Assembly (NCBI GenBank): GCA_020846875.1
Contig: JADLDB010000014.1
Location: 1 to 37,897 of the forward strand
From: Myxococcales bacterium
Lineage (GTDB): Bacteria > Myxococcota > Myxococcia > Myxococcales > Myxococcaceae
Direction of reading: 5' to 3'
DNA length: 37,897 bases
Positions 2,947 through 27,689 of the stretch are shown here, in pieces. The position numbers and the translations under genes were made by a program. Below the pieces are notes generated by a model that made no database searches, was not told where the DNA came from, and saw only the letters and a list, made by a program, of their open reading frames with translations. Position 1 is the first letter of the stretch; each line of letters starts with the position of its first letter.

Positions 2947-4056
2947 ATGGCTCGCGTGGAGACGTTCTACGAGGTGCTTCGCCGGCACGGCGTCAGCCGG
3001 CGCAGCTTCATGAAGTTCTGCAGTCTCACCGCCGCGTCCCTGGGGCTTGCTCCCGCCTTCGCGCAGAACGTGGCCCACGCCATGGAGACCAGACCGCGCG
3101 TGCCGGTCATCTGGCTGCACGGCATGGAGTGCACCTGCTGCTCGGAGTCCTTCATCCGCAGCGCCCACCCGCTGGCCAAAGACGTGGTGCTGTCGATGTT
3201 GTCGCTCGACTACCACAACACCCTGATGGCGTCGGCGGGCCACCAGGCCGAGGCGATCCTCGACGAGACGCGCGCGAAGTACAAAGGCCAGTACATCCTC
3301 GCGGTGGAAGGGAACTCGAGCCTGTCGCTCGACGATCCGTACTGCTTCGTCGGCGGCAAGCCCTTCCTCGCCCAACTCCAGGAGATGGCCCAAGACTCGA
3401 TGGCCGTCATCGCCTGGGGCAGTTGCGCGTCGTGGGGCTGCGTGCAGGCGGCCAAGCCCAACCCGTCGAACGCGGTGCCCATCGATCGCGTCATCCACAA
3501 CAAGCCGATCATCAAGGTGCCCGGCTGCCCGCCCATCGCCGAGGTGATGACCGGCGTGGTCAGCTACGTGCTCACCTTCGGCAAGCTGCCTGAGCTCGAC
3601 CGCCAGGGCCGGCCGAAGATGTTCTACAGCCAGCGCATTCACGACAAGTGCTACCGGCGGCCGCACTTCGACGCCGGGCAGTTCGTCGAGGCGTGGGACG
3701 ACGCGGGCGCGCGCCAGGGTTTCTGCCTGTACAAGATGGGCTGCCGCGGCCCCACCACCTACAACGCCTGCAGCACCACCCGGTGGAACGGCGGCGTCAG
3801 CTTCCCCATCGAGTCGGGGCACGGCTGCATCGGCTGCAGCGAGAACGACTTCTGGGACAACGGCCCCTTCTACGAGCGCCTGGTGAAGGTGTCGGGCTTC
3901 GGCATCGAGGGCACCGCCGATGACCTCGGGCTGAAGGCGCTGGGCGTGGTGGGCGTAGGCCTGGCGGCGCACGCCGCGGCGTCCACGGTGAAGAAGCTGG
4001 TGACAGGACACAACAAGCCGCCACCGCCAGCCGGCAAGGCGGGAGGTGCGTCATGA
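2947..4056 (+). CDS. hyaA: [NiFe]-hydrogenase small subunit, O2-tolerant group 1d type
   Basis: 369 residues, closely matching E. coli HyaA and Cupriavidus HoxK. A Tat signal (SRRSFMK, residues 17-23) exports the folded dimer. The proximal-cluster ligands are C62, C64, C65 (ECTCCSES), C160, C165 (WGSCASWGC) and C194 (GCPPIAEV). The two extra cysteines, C64 and C165, replace the glycines of O2-sensitive enzymes and mark a [4Fe-3S] cluster. H232, C235, C260 and C266 bind the distal [4Fe-4S]; C275, C294 and C297 the medial [3Fe-4S]. A C-terminal hydrophobic helix ([15 protein letters not shown]) anchors the protein near cytochrome b. It passes electrons from the Ni-Fe site to the membrane. ATG at 2947 follows a GGGGG Shine-Dalgarno-like run. 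The stop overlaps the large-subunit start (ATGA). Confidence 0.98.
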
Positions 4057-5843
4057 CGAAGACGGCGAACGGCTTCGACCTGGACACCAGCGGCAAGCGC
4101 GTGGTGGTGGATCCGATCACCCGCATCGAAGGGCACCTGCGCGTCGAGGTGAACGTCGACGACAAGGGCGTGATCAAGAACGCGGTGTCGTCGGGCACCA
4201 TGTGGCGCGGCCTGGAGGTGATCCTCAAGGGGAGAGATCCACGCGACGCCTGGGCCTTCACCGAGCGGATCTGCGGCGTGTGCACCGGGGTGCACGCCGT
4301 CGCCAGCGTGCGCTGCGTGGAGGACGCGCTGGGGATCAAGATCCCCGAGAACGCCAACACCATCCGCAACATCATCCACCTGACCCTGTTCGTGCAGGAT
4401 CACCTGGTCCACTTCTACCACCTGCACGCGCTGGACTGGGTGGACGTGGTCAGCGCGCTGAAGGCGGATCCAAAGGCCACCAGCGAATTGGCGCAGTCCA
4501 TCTCTCCGTGGGCGAAGAGCTCGCCCGGCTACTACCGCGACCTCGCGGGCCGGCTGGCGAAGTTCGTCGAGTCGGGACAACTGGGGCCCTTCAAGAACGC
4601 GTACTGGGGCCACCCGGCCTACAAGCTGCCCCCCGAAGCGAACCTGATGGCGGTGGCGCACTACCTGGAGGCGCTCGATTTCCAGAAGGAGATCGTGAAG
4701 ATCCAGACCATCTTCGGCGGGAAGAACCCGCACCCGAACTGGCTGGTGGGCGGCGTGCCGTCGCCCATCAACCTGGACGCGGACGGCTCGGTGGGCGCGA
4801 TCAACATGGAGCGCCTCAACCACGTCGGGAAGATCATCGACGACAGCCTGGCCTTCATCGAGCAGGTCTACGTGCCCGACCTGGTGGCGGTGGCCGGCTT
4901 CTACAAGGACTGGCTGTACGGCGGCGGGATCGCCGACAAGAACCTGCTCTCGTACGGTGAGTTCCCCGACCTCGCCAACGACGACTCCAACAAGTCGCTC
5001 TTGTTGCCGCGCGGGGCGATCGTCGACGGCAAGCTGACCGAGGTGCTGCCGGTCGACTTGAAGGACCCAGAGCAGATCCAGGAGTTCGTCACCCACTCGT
5101 GGTTCAAGTACCCCGACGAGACGAAGGGGCTGCACCCCTTCGAGGGCCTCACCGAGCCCAACTTCGTGCTGGGGCCCAACGCCAAGGGCGACCCGAAGAA
5201 GCTGATCGAGGTGCTGGACGAGTCGGCGAAGTACTCCTTCGTCAAGGCGCCGAGGTGGCGCGGCCGGCCGATGGAGGTGGGCCCGCTGGCCCGCTTCGTG
5301 GTCGCCTACTTCTCGGGCCGGGAAGACGTGAAGGCGCTGGTGGACTCCACGCTGAAGAAGCTGGACGTGCCGATCACCGCGCTGTTCTCGACGCTGGGCC
5401 GCACCGCGGCGCGCGGGCTGGAGTGCCTGTGGGCCGCGCAGAACCTGAAGCGCCAGTACGAGAAGCTGCTCGGGGCGATCAAGGCGGGCAACACCGCCAC
5501 CGCCAACACCTCGAAGTGGGATCCGAAGACCTGGCCGAAGGACGCGAAGGGCGCGGGCTTCTGCGAGGCGCCGCGCGGCGCGCTGGGCCACTGGATCCAC
5601 ATCCAGGACGAGAAGATCGCCAACTACCAGGCGGTCGTCCCCACCACCTGGAACGCCGGCCCGAGAGATCCAGCCGGCAACCTCGGCCCGTACGAGGCGT
5701 CGCTGCTGGGCACGCCCATGGCCGACCCGGAGCAGCCGCTGGAGATCATCCGCACCATCCACAGCTTCGACCCGTGCCTGGCCTGCGCGGCCCACGTCAT
5801 CTCGCCCGACGGCCAGGAGCTGGCGAAGGTCACGGTGAAGTGA
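4053..5843 (+). CDS. hyaB: [NiFe]-hydrogenase large (catalytic) subunit
   Basis: 596 residues. The Ni-Fe(CN)2CO site is held by four cysteines: C74 and C77 in [11 protein letters not shown] (L1 motif) and C575 and C578 in DPCLACAAH (L2 motif). Cleavage after H581 by the maturation protease would remove a 15-residue tail starting VISPDG, the usual length for this group. It oxidises H2 on the periplasmic face as the partner of the small subunit. It carries no Tat signal of its own and is co-exported. The start overlaps the small-subunit stop by four bases, which implies translational coupling. Internal motifs such as [21 protein letters not shown] and the tail all agree with HyaB/HoxG. Confidence 0.98.
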
Positions 5844-5854
5844 GGAGGACGCCA

Positions 5855-6682
5855 ATGAAACCACCTCTGTCACCGCCGACGGGACACTCCCACGGCCTCA
5901 CCCGGGCCCCGAAGGCGATGTACGTCTACGAGTGGCCGGTGCGGGTGTGGCACTGGGTCACCACCCTGGCCATCTTCGTGCTGGCCGTCACCGGGTACCT
6001 GATCGCCAAGCCGCTCCACAGCGTGGGCGGCGAGGCGTCGGACTCGTGGGTCAACGGGTGGATCCGCACCATCCACTTCGTGGCCGCCTACGGCCTGTCC
6101 GTGGCCTTCCTGATGCGGGTGCTGTGGATCCCCTTCGGCAACGCGCACAGCCGGGAGATCTTCTGGGTGCCCCTCTGGAAGGCGGCGTACTGGAAGGAGC
6201 TCCTCCAGGAGGTGAGGTGGTACGGCCTCGTGAAGAAGGCGCCGGCCAAGTACGTGGGCCACAACCCGCTGGCGCGCTTCTCCATGCTCTTCATGTTCGT
6301 GCTGGGGACGCTCTTCCTCATCTTCACCGGCTTCGGGCTGTACAGCGAAGGCACCGCCGCGGGCTCCTGGCAGCGCGCGCTGTTCGGCTGGACCAGCTCC
6401 TTCGCCGGCAGCTCGATGACGCTGCGCACCTGGCACCACCTGGCGATGTACTACGTGCTCGCCTTCTCGGTGATCCACATGTACCTCGTGCTCCGCGAGG
6501 ACATCATGGGCCGCACCTCCATGGCGTCCACCATGGTGTCCGGCTGGCGGCTGTTCCGCGACGAAGGCACCGACATCGACGACGCGGAGGAGCCGGCGAT
6601 CCGCAGAGGAATCGAGGCCGAGGTGCGCGCCGAGGAGGCGAAGGAGCCTGTCCCCAGCCCGGCGGCCCAGGGGAAGGGGTGA
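5855..6682 (+). CDS. hyaC: Hydrogenase b-type cytochrome subunit
   Basis: 275 residues with four membrane helices at about 32-50, 70-90, 143-163 and 192-213, the HyaC/HoxZ/HupC topology. Candidate haem-ligand histidines are H33 (VWHW), H74 (IHF), H194/H195 (WHH) and H208 (IHMY). The protein anchors the hydrogenase dimer in the inner membrane and passes electrons to the quinone pool. The ATG at 5855 is preceded at good spacing by GAGGAGG, which decides this start over upstream in-frame codons inside the large-subunit gene. The C-terminal tail (about residues 235-275) is Glu-rich and charged, longer than I would expect and probably cytoplasmic. Confidence 0.96.
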   Translation: MKPPLSPPTGHSHGLTRAPKAMYVYEWPVRVWHWVTTLAIFVLAVTGYLIAKPLHSVGGEASDSWVNGWIRTIHFVAAYGLSVAFLMRVLWIPFGNAHSREIFWVPLWKAAYWKELLQEVRWYGLVKKAPAKYVGHNPLARFSMLFMFVLGTLFLIFTGFGLYSEGTAAGSWQRALFGWTSSFAGSSMTLRTWHHLAMYYVLAFSVIHMYLVLREDIMGRTSMASTMVSGWRLFRDEGTDIDDAEEPAIRRGIEAEVRAEEAKEPVPSPAAQGKG

Positions 6683-6685
6683 CGG

Positions 6686-7318
6686 ATGAGCGAGCGCACG
6701 CCAGCGCTGGTGATGGGCATCGGCAACCTGCTCTGGGCCGACGAGGGCTTCGGGCTGCGCTGCCTGGAGTCCCTGCACCTGCGCTTCGACGTGCCGGCCG
6801 GCGTGGAGCTGCTCGACGGCGGCACCCAGGGCATGTACCTGGTGAACGCGGTGGCGGACGCCGAGCGCCTGCTGGTGTTCGACGCCATCGACTACGGCCT
6901 GGCGCCCGGCACCCTGAAGCTGGTGCGCGACGACGAGGTGCCCCGCTTCGCCGGCGTGCGGAAGATGAGCCTGCACCAGACGGGCTTCCAGGAGGTGCTG
7001 CTGGCCGCGGCCATGCTGGAGAAGAGCCCGGCGAAGGTGACGCTGGTGGGCGTGCAGTTGGGCACCATGGACGACTTCGGCGGCACGCTGTCTCAAGCCG
7101 TCGCCGCCGCGCTCGAGCCCGCCCTCGAGGCCGGGGTGGACGAGCTGGCCGCCTGGGGCTTCCCCCTCACCCGGCGCGCCGCCCCCGCCGCCCACCCCGT
7201 CTTCGCCCAGGCCCTCGCGCGCGACCGCTACGAGCAGGAGCGCCCGGGCCCCGACGTCGTCTGCCGCGAAGGCGACGCCCGCTTCTTGAACGTCCGCGCG
7301 AAGCGCCTGGGAGAGTGA
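6686..7318 (+). CDS. hyaD: Hydrogenase maturation endopeptidase
   Basis: 210 residues of the HyaD/HoxM/HybD family, which clips the C-terminal tail of the large subunit once nickel is in place. The residues equivalent to the HybD nickel-sensing ligands are present: E20 (GIGNLLWADEGFG), D66 (VFDAIDYG) and H97 (SLHQTGFQEVL). It starts 3 bp after the cytochrome gene and ends 3 bp before the HypC-family gene. It is about 45 residues longer than HybD, mostly through a basic C-terminal tail after the core; HyaD-type enzymes are generally longer. It is expected to be specific for the large subunit encoded beside it. Confidence 0.96.
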   Translation: MSERTPALVMGIGNLLWADEGFGLRCLESLHLRFDVPAGVELLDGGTQGMYLVNAVADAERLLVFDAIDYGLAPGTLKLVRDDEVPRFAGVRKMSLHQTGFQEVLLAAAMLEKSPAKVTLVGVQLGTMDDFGGTLSQAVAAALEPALEAGVDELAAWGFPLTRRAAPAAHPVFAQALARDRYEQERPGPDVVCREGDARFLNVRAKRLGE

Positions 7319-7321
7319 CGC

Positions 7322-7630
7322 ATGTGCCTCGGTATTCCCATGCGCGTGGTGACGGGTGACGCCGGCGGCGCGGTCGTCCGACGTCGAGACGGGGAGGAGC
7401 GGCTGGTCAGCTTGATGCTGGTGGGCGGCCCGCAGCCGGTGGGCACCCCGCTGCTGGTGCACCTGGGCACCGCCGTCCGCGTGCTGAGCGAGGACGAGGT
7501 GCCGCTGCTGGAGGACGCGCTTGAGGCGCTGGAGGCCGCCGCGAAGGGCCTCGCCTTCGAGCACCTGGTGAAGGACCTGATCGACCGCACCCCCGAGCTG
7601 CCGCCGCACCTGCGCCAAGGAGGCCCGTGA
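7322..7630 (+). CDS. hupF: HypC-family chaperone (HoxL/HupF)
   Basis: 102 residues beginning MCLGIPMRV, the invariant HypC-family start whose Cys2 binds the Fe(CN)2CO moiety and the immature large subunit. Its position between the protease and the HyaE gene is that of hoxL in Cupriavidus and hupF in Rhizobium, rather than of the general hypC that sits with hypD and hypE. I therefore read it as the system-specific HypC paralogue, delivering or protecting the active site in the presence of O2. The C-terminal region (about residues 80-102) extends past the compact HypC core, as in HoxL/HupF. The stop shares a base with the next start (TGATG). Confidence 0.93.
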   Translation: MCLGIPMRVVTGDAGGAVVRRRDGEERLVSLMLVGGPQPVGTPLLVHLGTAVRVLSEDEVPLLEDALEALEAAAKGLAFEHLVKDLIDRTPELPPHLRQGGP

Positions 7631-8025
7631 TGAACCCCCTGCGTCCCCTGGAGCGCCTCGCCGCCGAGTCCCCTCCCCTCACCTTCGACGCCGCCGACGC
7701 CTTCGTGGCCGCGCCGGGCTGGGGCCTGTTGGTGCTGTCCGGTGACGCCGCCCAGCGGCCCGAGGCGCAGGACCTGGCGGTGGTGGCGCAGGAGCTGAAA
7801 GGACGCGCGCCGCAGGGCAGCCGCGTGGGCGTGGTGACGGACGCCGACGAGGCGAGGGTGAAGGCCTACTTCCAGGTGCCGGCGTTGCCCGCGCTCTTGG
7901 TGCTCCGCGACGGCAAGGTGCTGTCCCGCATCCCGAAGCTTCAGGAGTGGGCGGTGTACTCCCGCGCCGCCGACGTGCTGTGGGGCGCGCGCCGAACGGC
8001 CCCGGCCCCGGAGGTGACGCCATGA
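7630..8025 (+). CDS. hyaE: HyaE/HoxO-like thioredoxin-fold hydrogenase chaperone
   Basis: 131 residues with a thioredoxin-like pattern (WGLLVLSGDA, VGVVTDADEARV, FQVPALPALLVLRDGKVL) but no CXXC, as in HyaE/HupG/HoxO. These proteins bind the Tat signal of the small subunit and keep it from export until it is mature; HoxO is needed for O2-tolerant enzymes. ATG at 7630 overlaps the HupF stop by one base and is preferred over GTG at 7627. The end overlaps the next start (ATGA). Sequence conservation in this family is low, so the call leans on length, fold pattern and exact operon position. Confidence 0.85.
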   Translation: MNPLRPLERLAAESPPLTFDAADAFVAAPGWGLLVLSGDAAQRPEAQDLAVVAQELKGRAPQGSRVGVVTDADEARVKAYFQVPALPALLVLRDGKVLSRIPKLQEWAVYSRAADVLWGARRTAPAPEVTP

Positions 8026-8858
8026 AGCCCGTCTTCGCCCTGCCGCTCCTCCACGAGGCCACCCCCGAAGCCGAGCTCGGCAACCAGCAGGCCTTCGGCG
8101 GCCTCCTCTCACCCGAGCCCGCGGGCTTGAGGCCCGTCGAGGGCGAGCCCGGCACGCGGGAGTGCCTGCCCCTCCTCCAGGCGTGCCGGAAGGCGCTGGC
8201 GCGCGCCGCGGCCACCGGCGAGGGCTTCCTCCTGCCGCTGGAGAACCTGTCGCCGGAGGCCAGCCGCGCCCTCGATGAGGCGCTGGGCGAGGGCGAGGTG
8301 ACGCTGACGGTGGGCGGCCGGCACCGCTACGAGGCTTCCGAGACGGCGCTGCCCGGCCTGTGGCGCGTCACCACGAAGGACGGCGCGCGCGTGCTGTCGC
8401 GGCACCTCGAGGTGGGTGACGTGCCGCACGTGGTGCGCGCCGCGGAGGAGACGGCCACGCTGAAGGACCTCCACATCGGCCAGCCGCCCCAGGGGGCGAT
8501 GAACGCGCTGCCGGTGCTGGCCGAGCTGCGGCACCGCAGCCAGGCGTGGCAGCCGGGCCAGCCCAACCACGTGCTGAGCTTCACCCTGCTGCCGATGAAC
8601 GAGGTGGACGTGGCGTACCTCGAGCAGCAGGTGGGGCACGGGCCGGTGCGCGGCGAGTCGAAGGGCTTCTCGCGCTGCGCGGTGGAGCTGACCGCGGTGC
8701 GCCACGTGTGGAGCGTCAAGCACTTCAACGCCATGGACAAGCTCATCCTCGACACCCTGGAGGTGGGCGACGTGCCGCAGGCGCTGCTGGCCGCCAGCGA
8801 CGACTTCCTGGACTCGGCCGCCCGGCTGTCCGAGTGGCTGGGCCGCGTGCCCGCATGA
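8022..8858 (+). CDS. hyaF: HyaF/HoxQ/HupH hydrogenase-1 type maturation protein
   Basis: 278 residues. The C-terminal half carries the HupH/HyaF-family features (SRHLEVGDVPHVV, GAMNALPVLAEL, WQPGQPNHVLSFTLLPM, CAVELTAVRHVWSVKHFNAMDKLILDTLEVG). It is thought to work with HyaE on small-subunit maturation, specifically in O2-tolerant hydrogenase systems. An interesting internal feature is that EVGDVPHVV and EVGDVPQALL recur at the two ends of the conserved block, suggesting an internal duplication. ATG at 8022 overlaps the HyaE stop by four bases and the stop overlaps the next start by four, so translation is probably coupled through the cluster. Confidence 0.9.
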   Translation: MKPVFALPLLHEATPEAELGNQQAFGGLLSPEPAGLRPVEGEPGTRECLPLLQACRKALARAAATGEGFLLPLENLSPEASRALDEALGEGEVTLTVGGRHRYEASETALPGLWRVTTKDGARVLSRHLEVGDVPHVVRAAEETATLKDLHIGQPPQGAMNALPVLAELRHRSQAWQPGQPNHVLSFTLLPMNEVDVAYLEQQVGHGPVRGESKGFSRCAVELTAVRHVWSVKHFNAMDKLILDTLEVGDVPQALLAASDDFLDSAARLSEWLGRVPA

Positions 8859-9508
8859 GCGGCGAGCGCGAGTGCGGCGTCTGCTGGTACGTCTACCGGC
8901 CCGGGGACGGCGACGGGGTGTGGCAGGTGCCCCCCGGCACGCCCTTCGACGCGCTGCCCGAGGAGTGGCGCTGCCCGCGCTGCGACTCGGACAAGTCCCG
9001 CTTCCTGCCCCCCACGGCACCTGCACCCTCTTCCCCGTCGGGAGAGAAGGCCGGGGTGAGGGGAAGAGTCGACGCGCTCCTGTCCGACTTCGAAGCCATC
9101 GCCGCCACCGCGATGAAGGACCTGCCGCTGAGCAACCCGCGCCTCGGCGTGGAGGCGGTCGACTTCCAGCCGCTGGGCGACGGCCACCTCGGCGTCCTCA
9201 TCACCCCGTGGAGCATCAACGCCGTCTTCCTCCCTCCGGCCGGCGCGCCGGTGCCGGGCGCGAAGGGCCACCAGCGCCTCCTCCCTGCAGGCGCGGTGAC
9301 GTTCTTCCCCCAGCGCCTGCCCACGGCCGGGGACGTGGAGGTGGCGTCGCTCTTCTCTCCCGCACAGGAGTTCGACAGCCAGGCTGCCGCGGTGGCCGCC
9401 GCGCGCGAGGCTTTGGCCCTGCTGCGCGCCGCGCCCGCGCCGCCCCCGGCGCACAGCCGGCGGGAGCTCTTCGCCACCCTGCGCGGACGCCCCCCCACTC
9501 CGCCATGA
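8855..9508 (+). CDS. Rubredoxin-HybE fusion (HoxR-HoxT) hydrogenase assembly protein
   Basis: 217 residues in two domains. Residues 1-52 are a rubredoxin with iron ligands C7/C10 (ECGVC) and C40/C43 (RCPRC) and the typical PPGTPFDALPEEW loop; a Trp replaces the usual Gly after C10. Residues about 72-217 are a HybE/HupJ/HoxT-type chaperone (LSNPRLGVEAVDFQPL, LGVLITPWSINAVFLPP). In Cupriavidus these are separate neighbouring genes, hoxR and hoxT, both tied to assembly of the O2-tolerant enzyme. Here they are one frame joined by a linker (about residues 53-71) encoded by a REP-like palindromic repeat. Starts and stops overlap both neighbours by four bases (ATGA). Domain calls are strong; the functional effect of fusion is inferred. 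Confidence 0.92.
   Translation: MSGERECGVCWYVYRPGDGDGVWQVPPGTPFDALPEEWRCPRCDSDKSRFLPPTAPAPSSPSGEKAGVRGRVDALLSDFEAIAATAMKDLPLSNPRLGVEAVDFQPLGDGHLGVLITPWSINAVFLPPAGAPVPGAKGHQRLLPAGAVTFFPQRLPTAGDVEVASLFSPAQEFDSQAAAVAAAREALALLRAAPAPPPAHSRRELFATLRGRPPTPP
9024..9063 (+). repeat. REP-like palindromic element inside the rubredoxin-HybE gene
   Basis: The segment starts CACCCTCTTCCCCGTCGGGA and ends GGCCGGGGTGAGGGG. It contains an imperfect hairpin, CTCT(T)CCC/GGGAGAG, flanked by CCCTC and GAGGG. It strongly resembles a class of dispersed extragenic repeats I know from GC-rich proteobacterial genomes (variants of CCCTCTCCCC...GGGGTGAGGG). It is read in frame as a Pro/Ser/Gly-rich linker. No second copy was noticed in this window, so membership of a repeat family is inferred. 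Confidence 0.55.
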
Positions 9509-10647
9509 GCCCCGAAGGCGCCCTCACGTTGACTCTGCGCGTCTCCCGAGGGCGCGTGGACGACGTGCAGGTGTCCTCCACCCGGCGCACCGACTACTCC
9601 GCGGCGCTGGCGGGGCGCGACGTGCACGACGCGGCGCTGCTGGTCCCTTCGCTCTTCTCCATCTGCGCGGCGGCCCACGCGGTGGCGGGCCTGGGCGCCT
9701 GCGAGGCGGCGCTGGGTGTGCACGTCGACGAGCAGCAGGCGCGGCTGCGGCGGCTCCTCACCCAACTGGAGGCCCTGGACAACCACGCCTTCCAGGTGTG
9801 CGTCGCCTGGGCCAAGCACGCGGGCGCGCCGCCCGCCGTGGAGGCCTTGCGGCGACTGCGCCGGGCGACCGAGGCGCTGCGCCTGTGGGCCCACGACGGG
9901 ACGCGCTGGACGCGGGTGGGCGGCGTCGGCTTCACCCCGTCGGGCTCTCCCCGGGCGCTGGTGGACGCGCTCCGCGAGGCGGTGGACGCCCTGGTCCCCG
10001 CGGCGGCGCGCGCGGGGGACGCGCGGGAGTTGGAGCGCTGGAGCCACGGCAGCGACAGCCCGGTCGCGGCGCTGCTTCGCCAGGTGCGCGCCCTGGACGC
10101 CGCGCACTTCGGGAAGGCCACCCGGCCGCTGCTGCCGGCGATGAGCGCGGCCTGGTACGGACAGCGGCTGGTGGGCCCCGACTTCGGCGCCCGCCCCGCG
10201 CTGGACAGCGGCGCCGCCGAGGCCGGCGCGTTGTCCCGCGTGGCAGAGCACCCGGCCCTCGCGCCCCTGGTGAGCGCCCACGGGCACACCGTCCTCACCC
10301 GCCTCCTCGCGGTGCTCGTCGATCTTCACGCCCTGGTCGGCACCGTCACCGCCGCCGCGGAGGTGCTGGAGCCGTCGAAGGGCCACGCCCCCGCCGAGCG
10401 GGACAGCGGGCAGGGGGCGGGCGTGGCGGACACCTCGCGGGGAAGGCTGGCCCACGCCGTCGAGCTCACGTCGAACACGGTGGTGCACTGGCGACAGGTG
10501 GCGCCCACCGAGTGGAGCTTCCACCCCTTCGGCGTCTTGCGCGAGGCGCTGCTGGGCGCCCCGGCCGAGGACCTGGCGCGGCGCGCGGGCCTGCTGGTGC
10601 TGTCGCTCGACCCCTGCGTGCCCTGCCGCGTCGTCGTGGAAGACTGA
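9505..10647 (+). CDS. hupK: HupK/HoxV hydrogenase large-subunit-like scaffold
   Basis: 380 residues. The protein is a degenerate relative of the large subunit. Near the N-terminus SLFSICAAAHAVAGLGACEA mimics RxCGxCTxxH but keeps only the first cysteine. The C-terminus SLDPCVPCRVVVED keeps both DPCxxC cysteines but has Arg-Val where the His cleavage site would be, and has no removable tail. HoxV/HupK proteins are thought to hold the Fe(CN)2CO cofactor during assembly before handing it to the real large subunit. The start overlaps the previous stop by four bases; hypA follows after 7 bp. This is the expected position after hoxT. Confidence 0.88.
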   Translation: MSPEGALTLTLRVSRGRVDDVQVSSTRRTDYSAALAGRDVHDAALLVPSLFSICAAAHAVAGLGACEAALGVHVDEQQARLRRLLTQLEALDNHAFQVCVAWAKHAGAPPAVEALRRLRRATEALRLWAHDGTRWTRVGGVGFTPSGSPRALVDALREAVDALVPAAARAGDARELERWSHGSDSPVAALLRQVRALDAAHFGKATRPLLPAMSAAWYGQRLVGPDFGARPALDSGAAEAGALSRVAEHPALAPLVSAHGHTVLTRLLAVLVDLHALVGTVTAAAEVLEPSKGHAPAERDSGQGAGVADTSRGRLAHAVELTSNTVVHWRQVAPTEWSFHPFGVLREALLGAPAEDLARRAGLLVLSLDPCVPCRVVVED

Positions 10648-10654
10648 ACTCCCC

Positions 10655-10996
10655 ATGCACGAGCTCTCGCTGGCCGAAGGCATCGTCTCCCTCATCGAGG
10701 AGCAGGCGAGGCAGGACGGCTTTCGCCGGGTGCGGAAGGTGCACGTGCTGGTGGGCGCGCTGTCCCAGGTGATGCCCGAGGCGCTGGCCTTCGGCTTCAC
10801 CTCGGCGGCGAAGGGCACGCTGGCCGAAGGCGCGGAGCTGGTGCTGACCCGCCCACCCGGCACCGCCACCTGCATGGGCTGCGGGAAGAGCGTCACCGTG
10901 GAGCGCCGCGGCGATCCCTGCCCCGGGTGCGGCAGCTTTCAGCTCCTCGTCACCGGCGGCGAAGAGCTGCGCGTCACCGACCTGGACGTGGAGTAG
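10655..10996 (+). CDS. hypA: HypA nickel insertion protein
   Basis: 113 residues starting MHELS, with nickel ligand H2 next to E3. The structural zinc site is C73, C76 (CMGC) and C89, C92 (CPGC), which matches HypA/HybF. With HypB it delivers nickel to the large subunit. It is the last gene of the hydrogenase run. Unlike in Cupriavidus, hypB, hypF, hypC, hypD and hypE do not follow; a glycolytic gene begins 121 bp later. The rest of the maturation set must lie elsewhere in the genome if the enzyme is functional. Confidence 0.97.
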   Translation: MHELSLAEGIVSLIEEQARQDGFRRVRKVHVLVGALSQVMPEALAFGFTSAAKGTLAEGAELVLTRPPGTATCMGCGKSVTVERRGDPCPGCGSFQLLVTGGEELRVTDLDVE

Positions 10997-15161: not shown

Positions 15162-17486
15162 TCACTCGATGAGGCCGGCGCGCCGGCTGGCGGCCAGCGA
15201 CTCCACCGCGTCGAGGCGGCGCACCACGTCCTTGAGCTGCTCCGCGAAGGCCCGGCGCTTCTCGACGAGGCCGTCGCCCTTGAGGCACCCGCGGGCCACC
15301 GCCACCTTGAGGCCGGTGGAGAAGAGCACCTTGGACACGCTCTCCTCGGAGTGCACGCGCTTCTGCAGCACGTACTGCCTGCCCAGCGCGAGGCACTTCG
15401 CGACGAAGGGCCCTTCCTCCACCGGACCCTCTTCCCGCAAGAGCGCGTCGGCCGCGATGCGGTACGCGTCGACGAAGGGCCGCAGCGCGCGGTGGGCGGA
15501 GAAGGGCTTGAAGCGGCGCACCACGTCCTCCACCGCGTCCTCGCCGCGGGCGAAGGCGGCTTCCCAGTCCGGCGCGTGGAAGGCCACCTCGTCGAAGAGG
15601 GCCCTCTTGAAGGCGTCCTTCTCGGCGAAGAAGAACTCGAACTTGAGCAGGTCGCGCAGGCACATCGCCTCGTCCTCGAAGGCCTGGCGCTTGTCACCGG
15701 CGGCGGTGGCGGCGAAGAGCAGCGCCAGCTCCGCGATGGAGCCGTCGACGAAGAAGTGGAGGATGGTGTTCCGGTAGTACGCGGCGGTGAGGAACTGGTT
15801 GGGCACCAGGGCCCACACCGGCTCGGGGCCCTCGTCGAAGCAGCGCACGACGCCGTTGTCGGCGAGCCCCTTCAGGTGCCGGGTGAGGCCTTCCTTCGTC
15901 TCCAGGTCGTCCAGCGGGGTGGTGGACGGCAGCCCCCGCAGCCGCGCGTAGCGCACCACGTTGGCGAGGCCGTGCAGCACTTCGTCCACCGTCACCGCGC
16001 GCTCGCCGGCGCCCAACAGCGCGAGGGAGAGGGCGGCGTTGGGGGTGATGGGCGTGGCGCGGTTGATGCGGTGGCACACCTCGAAGGCCAGCTTCTGCAC
16101 CGGCAGGTTCTTCTCTTCGGAGTCTGCGCCGGCCTGGGACGCGTCGGGCTTGCCCAGCGAGGCCTTCAAGGACACGGGCTCGCCGAAGCGCAGGTGGATC
16201 TGCCCGTACTGGCGCTTCAAGGCCTTGAGCATCTTCACGAACCAGCCCAGGCCCTCTTTCTGCTTGGCGCCGCCGCGGGCCTCGTGGGCGTAGTCGCCCA
16301 CGTCGGAGATCTGATCATACGCGATGGCCACCGGCACCAGCAGCACGTCGTCGGCGCGGCCGCGGCGCCAGGCGTCCACCACGTAGGCCAGCATGCCGAA
16401 GCGCGGGGGGAGCAGCTTGCCGGAGCGGCTGCGGCCACCTTCGATGTACCACTCCATGGCGAAGCGCTTCTCCACCAGGAAGTCGACGTACTGGCGCAGC
16501 ACGAACTTGTAGACGGGGTTGTCCTTGAAGGTGCGGCGGATGAAGAAGACGCCGGTGCGGCGGAACACCGGGCCCACCGGGAAGAAGTTCATGTTGATGC
16601 CGCCGGCGGTGTGGTTGGGCGGCGCGCCGTTGTCGAAGAGGACGTACTGGAGGATGGCGTGGTCGAGGTTGGACTTGTGGGTGGGCAGGAAGACGACCGT
16701 CTGCCCGGGCTTCGGCGCGAGCAGCGCCTTCAGGCGCTCCCGGTCGTAGGCGATTTCCTCCGCGTAGCCCTGGCGGTACACCACGCGGATGAGGCGGTGC
16801 ACCAGGTCGATGACGTAGGGGCTGACGCGGGCGGCGATTTCTCGCAGGTAGAACTCGGCGCGGCGGGTGACGCGCTTCGCTTCGAGGCCGGTGGACTTCT
16901 CCAGCGCGGCGAGGCCGGCGCGGAAGTCGCGGTGGGACAGCACCTCTTCGCGGACGAAGCGGGGCACCTTGTAGCGGGCGCCGCGGATGGAGCGCTCGGC
17001 GCGTTCCAGGGCGAGCGCCGCCTGCCGCAGGACGAAGAGGGCGAACGCCTCCGGATCCGCGTCGCCTCCCAGCTTGCAGCGCGCGCGCAGCTCGGCGGCG
17101 GTGGCCGGCTCTCCAGCGACGACGCGGACGCGGTCGGGATGACGGGCCAGCACCCAGCGCTTGCCGAGGTAGCCGGGGGCGCGGGGGTTGCCCAGGGTGA
17201 GCAGGTCGAAGAGGCGCACCGCGCGCTCGCCCTTGAGTTCCCGGGGCAGCCAGGCGACGCGCACCGGGGTGAGGACCTCGGCGTCGGCCCTGCCCAGGCG
17301 GTCCACCAGCGCCTGGTCGAGGCGGCCCACGTCCCAGGCGCGGGTGGGAGGGAGGCGGACGACTTCGTGCGCCGCCCCGCCCAGCTCCTTGGCGATCCAC
17401 TGGCGGATGAGGTGCCGCTCGAGGCCGTCGCCGTCGACGAGGAAGACGCGCGGGCGCGAGTCGGCGGAGGAGCTCACCCGGCGCAT
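15162..17486 (-). CDS. plsB: Glycerol-3-phosphate 1-O-acyltransferase PlsB
   Basis: 774 residues. All acyltransferase blocks of the PlsB family are present: block I THKSNLDH with catalytic H270 and D275, GGINMNFFPVG and FFIRR (block II), YIEGGRSRSGKLLPPRFGML (block III, E349-G-G-R352) and VPVAIAYD (block IV). It acylates sn-glycerol 3-phosphate at position 1 at the inner membrane, the first step of phospholipid synthesis. It is close to the ~800 residues of E. coli PlsB. ATG at 17486 is chosen over upstream in-frame codons because it gives a normal basic N-terminus; no strong Shine-Dalgarno is visible. The downstream gene encodes a RelA/SpoT-like protein, a suggestive pairing because ppGpp inhibits PlsB in E. 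coli. Confidence 0.95.
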   Translation of the reverse strand: MRRVSSSADSRPRVFLVDGDGLERHLIRQWIAKELGGAAHEVVRLPPTRAWDVGRLDQALVDRLGRADAEVLTPVRVAWLPRELKGERAVRLFDLLTLGNPRAPGYLGKRWVLARHPDRVRVVAGEPATAAELRARCKLGGDADPEAFALFVLRQAALALERAERSIRGARYKVPRFVREEVLSHRDFRAGLAALEKSTGLEAKRVTRRAEFYLREIAARVSPYVIDLVHRLIRVVYRQGYAEEIAYDRERLKALLAPKPGQTVVFLPTHKSNLDHAILQYVLFDNGAPPNHTAGGINMNFFPVGPVFRRTGVFFIRRTFKDNPVYKFVLRQYVDFLVEKRFAMEWYIEGGRSRSGKLLPPRFGMLAYVVDAWRRGRADDVLLVPVAIAYDQISDVGDYAHEARGGAKQKEGLGWFVKMLKALKRQYGQIHLRFGEPVSLKASLGKPDASQAGADSEEKNLPVQKLAFEVCHRINRATPITPNAALSLALLGAGERAVTVDEVLHGLANVVRYARLRGLPSTTPLDDLETKEGLTRHLKGLADNGVVRCFDEGPEPVWALVPNQFLTAAYYRNTILHFFVDGSIAELALLFAATAAGDKRQAFEDEAMCLRDLLKFEFFFAEKDAFKRALFDEVAFHAPDWEAAFARGEDAVEDVVRRFKPFSAHRALRPFVDAYRIAADALLREEGPVEEGPFVAKCLALGRQYVLQKRVHSEESVSKVLFSTGLKVAVARGCLKGDGLVEKRRAFAEQLKDVVRRLDAVESLAASRRAGLIE

Positions 17487-25596: not shown

Positions 25597-27689
<2,093 letters not shown>

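Follow-up and report, generated by a model that had tools for sequence, protein, structure and literature searches.

A dispersed 42-nucleotide repeat in the linker of a fused rubredoxin-HybE hydrogenase gene from a myxobacterium

The fused gene and its operon

The window, that is, the whole stretch of 37,897 nucleotides analysed here, carries on its forward strand an uptake [NiFe] hydrogenase operon of ten open reading frames (2947..10996), identified by Pfam matches as hupS, hupL, hupC, hupD, hupF (hypC), hupG (hyaE), hupH, a fused hupIJ, hupK and hypA. The operon is complete, encoding the small and large subunits, cytochrome b, protease, HypC, HyaE, HupH, the fused protein, HupK and HypA, and its gene order is the same in relatives with the fused and with the split form. 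The fused gene, of the hupIJ or hoxR-hoxT type (8855..9508, forward strand), begins with an ATG and encodes 217 amino acids; fused orthologues are found in other Myxococcaceae. Its start overlaps, in an ATGA, the end of hupH (8022..8858, forward strand; PF04809), and its stop is shared in the same way with the hupK-like gene (9505..10647, forward strand), which has a C-terminal match to PF00374.

A preliminary description of this DNA had placed a rubredoxin and a HybE-type domain in one protein, and the profile matches within the open reading frame bear this out. Residues 6 to 50 (8870..9004, forward strand) form a rubredoxin domain (PF00301, 67.9 bits, E 8e-19) with the fold and the two CxxC motifs (CxxC...CPxC) that provide the iron ligands Cys7, Cys10, Cys40 and Cys43, invariant across 15 fused proteins. 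Residues 71 to 207 (9065..9475, forward strand) match the HybE (HupJ/HoxT) family PF11939 with an E value of 2.5e-34 and 118.8 bits, against a cut-off of 25, over positions 2-146 of the 147 in the profile. Solved structures are matched by both halves of the protein: rubredoxins by the first and E. coli HybE (2kc5), the best Foldseek match, by the second. An AlphaFold2 model, for which the 15 fused sequences served as input, is confident for the two domains (pLDDT mostly above 90), and the linker, residues 51-70, is predicted to be flexible (pLDDT 62-70).

The repeat and its copies

The linker DNA contains a copy of a 42-nt REP-like repeat (9025..9066, forward strand), which is translated in frame as residues 57-71. 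When positions 8990-9100 were compared by BLAST with the rest of the organism's own genome, nine further places matched at E < 1e-3. The best partner, C23, has an E value of 4.7e-9 (90% over 41 nt) and the next match one of 1.6e-8. The C23 copy is translated in a different frame from that of the window copy; therefore, the similarity lies at the DNA level and is not that of convergent protein linkers. A search with a covariance model, R1, found 57 places in the genome at E < 1e-3, among them the window copy, which matched at all 42 model positions (56.4 bits, E 8.8e-9). The proposal that a dispersed repeat read in frame encodes part of the linker thus holds, and the genome search suggested as its check shows that the sequence is not unique. 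Alignment of 30 copies gave a unit that is usually 42 nt long, with the consensus NNCCCTCNCCCCCATCGGGGGAGAGGGCCGGGGAGAGGGGAAG. The repeat had been correctly located in the linker, but its limits, given as 9024-9063, need to be moved to 9025-9066. It had also been called palindromic. This is true in a loose sense, in that CCCTC..CCCC is able to pair with GGGG.GAGGG, but the window copy folds no better than shuffled sequences, as DNA or as RNA (z of -0.2 to -0.7). The hairpin stability of four sequences likewise indicated that pairing is possible, with z between -0.5 and -1.7.

Fifteen of 52 copies (about 29%) lie within genes and in frame. Fourteen were called from the codon scores of their flanks; the window copy, which this classifier missed because the rubredoxin flank scores poorly, was added by homology. 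This number is far below that expected from random insertion (binomial, with an assumed coding fraction of 85-90%), showing that most copies avoid genes. Frame SLAPIGGEGRGEGK is used in 11 of the 14 classifier-called copies. The hosts include TsaB (TIGR03725) and RecN (TIGR00634), both above the family cut-off, an AddA/RecB-like helicase-nuclease and a photolyase-FAD fusion (L083, L102, L078 and L125, on C150, C84, C65 and C31, respectively), as well as a PUFA/polyketide-type synthase (two copies), a histidine kinase, Ser/Thr kinases and a 4Fe-4S protein (two copies). The repeat in the hydrogenase linker is thus not an isolated accident and belongs to a wider pattern of in-frame copies.

In TsaB, the site of the element coincides exactly with 12 additional residues, which follow directly on ELYLGRY and are absent in 11 of 11 relatives. 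In RecN, the element lies in a loop of variable length; of eight aligned relatives, seven are shorter there by a net 3-6 residues, and the eighth, from G012, is longer at this loop than the protein studied here, through a different expansion. This suggests, as far as the alignment goes, that the RecN loop is a spot tolerant of insertions. The expansion in the G012 protein (L148) consists of a tandem LAGLDR repeat.

Two genes carry two in-frame copies each: L082, at C104:14750-14791 and 15654-15695, and L079, at C94:26782-26823 and 27018-27059. In L079, one of the two copies is inverted and translated from its other strand. The photolyase-FAD reading frame, L125:3-2723, is a single one in which a photolyase-like region (aa 139-570) is followed by a flavin amine-oxidase-like region (aa 580-902), and it possibly encodes a real fusion protein.

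The distribution of the repeat family in Myxococcota is patchy, with 10-38 strong matches in each of G012, G039, G008, G007 and G016 and none in most of the other genomes compared. Both the length and the loop of the repeat differ between genomes; the cousin repeats are mostly 41 or 38 nt long in G012 and 42-44 nt in G039. Only 3 of 40 cousin copies from these two genomes were called in-gene, their lengths being 39, 39 and 42 nt, which is suggestive of cousins that rarely enter genes and do so only as 39- or 42-nt copies. The in-gene share differs between the own genome (15/52) and G012 plus G039 (3/40) with p 0.016, and between lengths divisible by three and other lengths in the three genomes with p 0.013; both tests were devised after the data had been seen, with a simple classifier and model-defined ends, and are to be taken as a lead only. 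One tentative idea, to which we give rather less than even odds, is that of a "length gate": once its length had settled at 42 nt (14 codons), an intergenic REP-like element could repeatedly have been kept by housekeeping proteins as a loop of 14 residues, SLAPIGGEGRGEGK being the usual frame, with its cousins in sister genomes, mostly of other lengths, staying outside genes. The existence of cousin repeats of different lengths in related genomes makes the idea that persistence depends on length modulo three directly testable.

Fused and split relatives and the order of events

Fused proteins without the repeat exist within the same family, in G035 (60% identity), G001 and G013. The two closest to the window protein (L010/L031 and L011/L032) come from other Myxococcaceae genera and lack the repeat; each of the pairs L010/L031, L011/L032 and L012/L044 represents one genome present in two collections and was counted once. 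A set of 41 loci taken from public genomes contained further fused forms in Rhodospirillales, Magnetovibrio, Ponticaulis, Caulobacteraceae, Ancylobacter, Bosea and another member of the Xanthobacteraceae, and split hupI/hupJ in Azotobacter, Acidithiobacillus, Methylocystis, Derxia and others; in the first three of these and in others the separate genes were seen in colinear operons. Fusions of the two domains therefore do exist elsewhere, in other Myxococcota and in several alphaproteobacterial lineages, as the preliminary description had allowed, and what it took to be peculiar to this protein, the repeat-bearing linker, is so among the fused proteins examined: none of the 17 loci scored exceeded 16.1 bits, as against 56.4 for the window copy. 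The linkers of distant fused proteins proved unrelated. The repeat family itself gave no match in the genome of G035 and only weak ones in those of G001 and G013. From the last rubredoxin Phe to the first conserved HybE Pro, the linker measures 40 residues in the window protein, 30, 30 and 25 in the other Myxococcota fused proteins and 32-67 elsewhere.

In a tree of the HybE domain, the window protein, L031 and L032 form a clade with support 100/97. Mapping the fused or split state on this tree takes four parsimony changes; strongly supported branches make two of these unavoidable. L044, the third fused protein from a myxobacterium, lies apart in the tree on a long branch and may represent a separate fusion or a transfer. 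Among the papers searched, none was found on a rubredoxin-HybE fusion.

The repeat-free fused relatives and the unrelated linkers of the alphaproteobacterial fused proteins argue that fusion preceded the repeat. In the reading that we favor, with a probability of roughly 0.88, the fusion is the older event, and the repeat entered the linker of an already fused protein and was tolerated there as a spacer. The rubredoxin-HybE fusion would be old in the lineage, being common to at least three Myxococcaceae genera, and a copy of the dispersed 42-nt element would have entered the flexible stretch between the domains later. With its length divisible by three and no stop in the frame used, the element would have left the protein whole and about 10 residues longer in the linker region. 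Most likely, the peptide that it encodes is a spacer that the protein tolerates; there are about 15 such in-frame copies in the genome. The fused protein presumably keeps the role of the separate HupI/HupJ (HoxR/HoxT), protecting the iron-sulfur subunit and helping it to mature. The empty-site comparison was made at a genus-to-genus distance (57-60% identity), and the gain of 10 residues is smaller than the 14 of the element; part of the neighboring sequence may have been lost, or the linker may have drifted, so that the insertion cannot be traced cleanly at the nucleotide level. Formally, the two genes may also have come apart and fused anew in this one genome.

The repeat might instead have a function in the linker, as a protein spacer setting the distance between the domains or as an mRNA hairpin tuning expression within the operon. 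That it is kept in frame, in an operon where neighboring genes overlap, and that REPs have been proposed to act in mRNAs (PMC3733652) would agree with this, but the linkers of fused proteins are free to vary in sequence and length (25-67 residues) and the folding energy is unexceptional, which makes a function unlikely. Less probable still is the origin first put forward for the fusion, according to which the repeat landed at the hupI/hupJ (hoxR/hoxT) junction, took out the stop and so made one reading frame of two. It drew on the position of the repeat, exactly between the two domains, and on the adjacency of separate hupI and hupJ in many operons; it conflicts with the clade in which the nearest relatives have the fusion but no repeat, with the lack of a strong copy in the genomes of those relatives, and with fused forms elsewhere whose linkers are different. 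The tempting story of a repeat that creates a gene fusion is thus corrected by comparison with repeat-free fused relatives. Finally, low-complexity linkers are common and the copy folds no better than shuffles, but a Pro/Ser/Gly/Glu-rich linker in GC-rich DNA that resembles the repeat by chance can be set aside, given the DNA match to a copy translated in another frame, the complete match to the model and the low scores of the 17 fused-relative loci.

Comparison with known proteins and repeats

HoxR/HoxT of Ralstonia eutropha and HupI/HupJ of Rhizobium leguminosarum are presented, in those passages of PMC3772215 that cite Fritsch 2011 and Manyani 2005, as maturation factors tied to the oxygen tolerance of the uptake hydrogenase. 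They have the same domains and the same place in the operon as the fused gene; they are separate proteins, whereas their myxobacterial counterpart is a single polypeptide.

Intragenic REPs were described by Di Nocera et al. (2013) as elements of 20-40 bp, mostly intergenic, some of which lie inside open reading frames and tend to occur in genes for DNA repair and tRNA modification (PMC3733652). The myxobacterial hosts (TsaB, RecN, the AddA-like nuclease and photolyase) echo this leaning. The GTAG/CGTC REPs are tagged, however, and the consensus of the 42-nt element has neither GTAG nor CGTC; in the alignment of 30 copies, no such tag was present at either end of the repeat. A REP-flanked RAYT transposase was not found in the organism's own genome, where the one weak Y1_Tnp match (C131:31875) is near no strong copy. 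In the absence of a tag and of a RAYT partner, we keep the 42-nt element outside the GTAG/CGTC superfamilies, though it would appear to work like them. The papers searched yielded nothing on the peptide or DNA motifs of the repeat and nothing relevant on myxobacterial REPs.

The phenomenon also resembles that of the Rickettsia palindromic elements (RPE), small dispersed repeats found within the open reading frames of conserved proteins (PMC3767692, PMC3733652). Here too, a dispersed repeat forms part of the reading frame of conserved proteins and is missing from their relatives, as in the window protein and TsaB, and codon scores identified further genes with RPE-like in-frame elements. The organism is a different one, and the element is 42 nt long and GC-rich, with only about 29% of its copies in genes; the likeness is one of mode of action. 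By analogy with RPEs and intragenic REPs, the repeat would thus belong to a known type, and a GC-rich myxobacterium joins the organisms whose protein genes have taken up small repeats.
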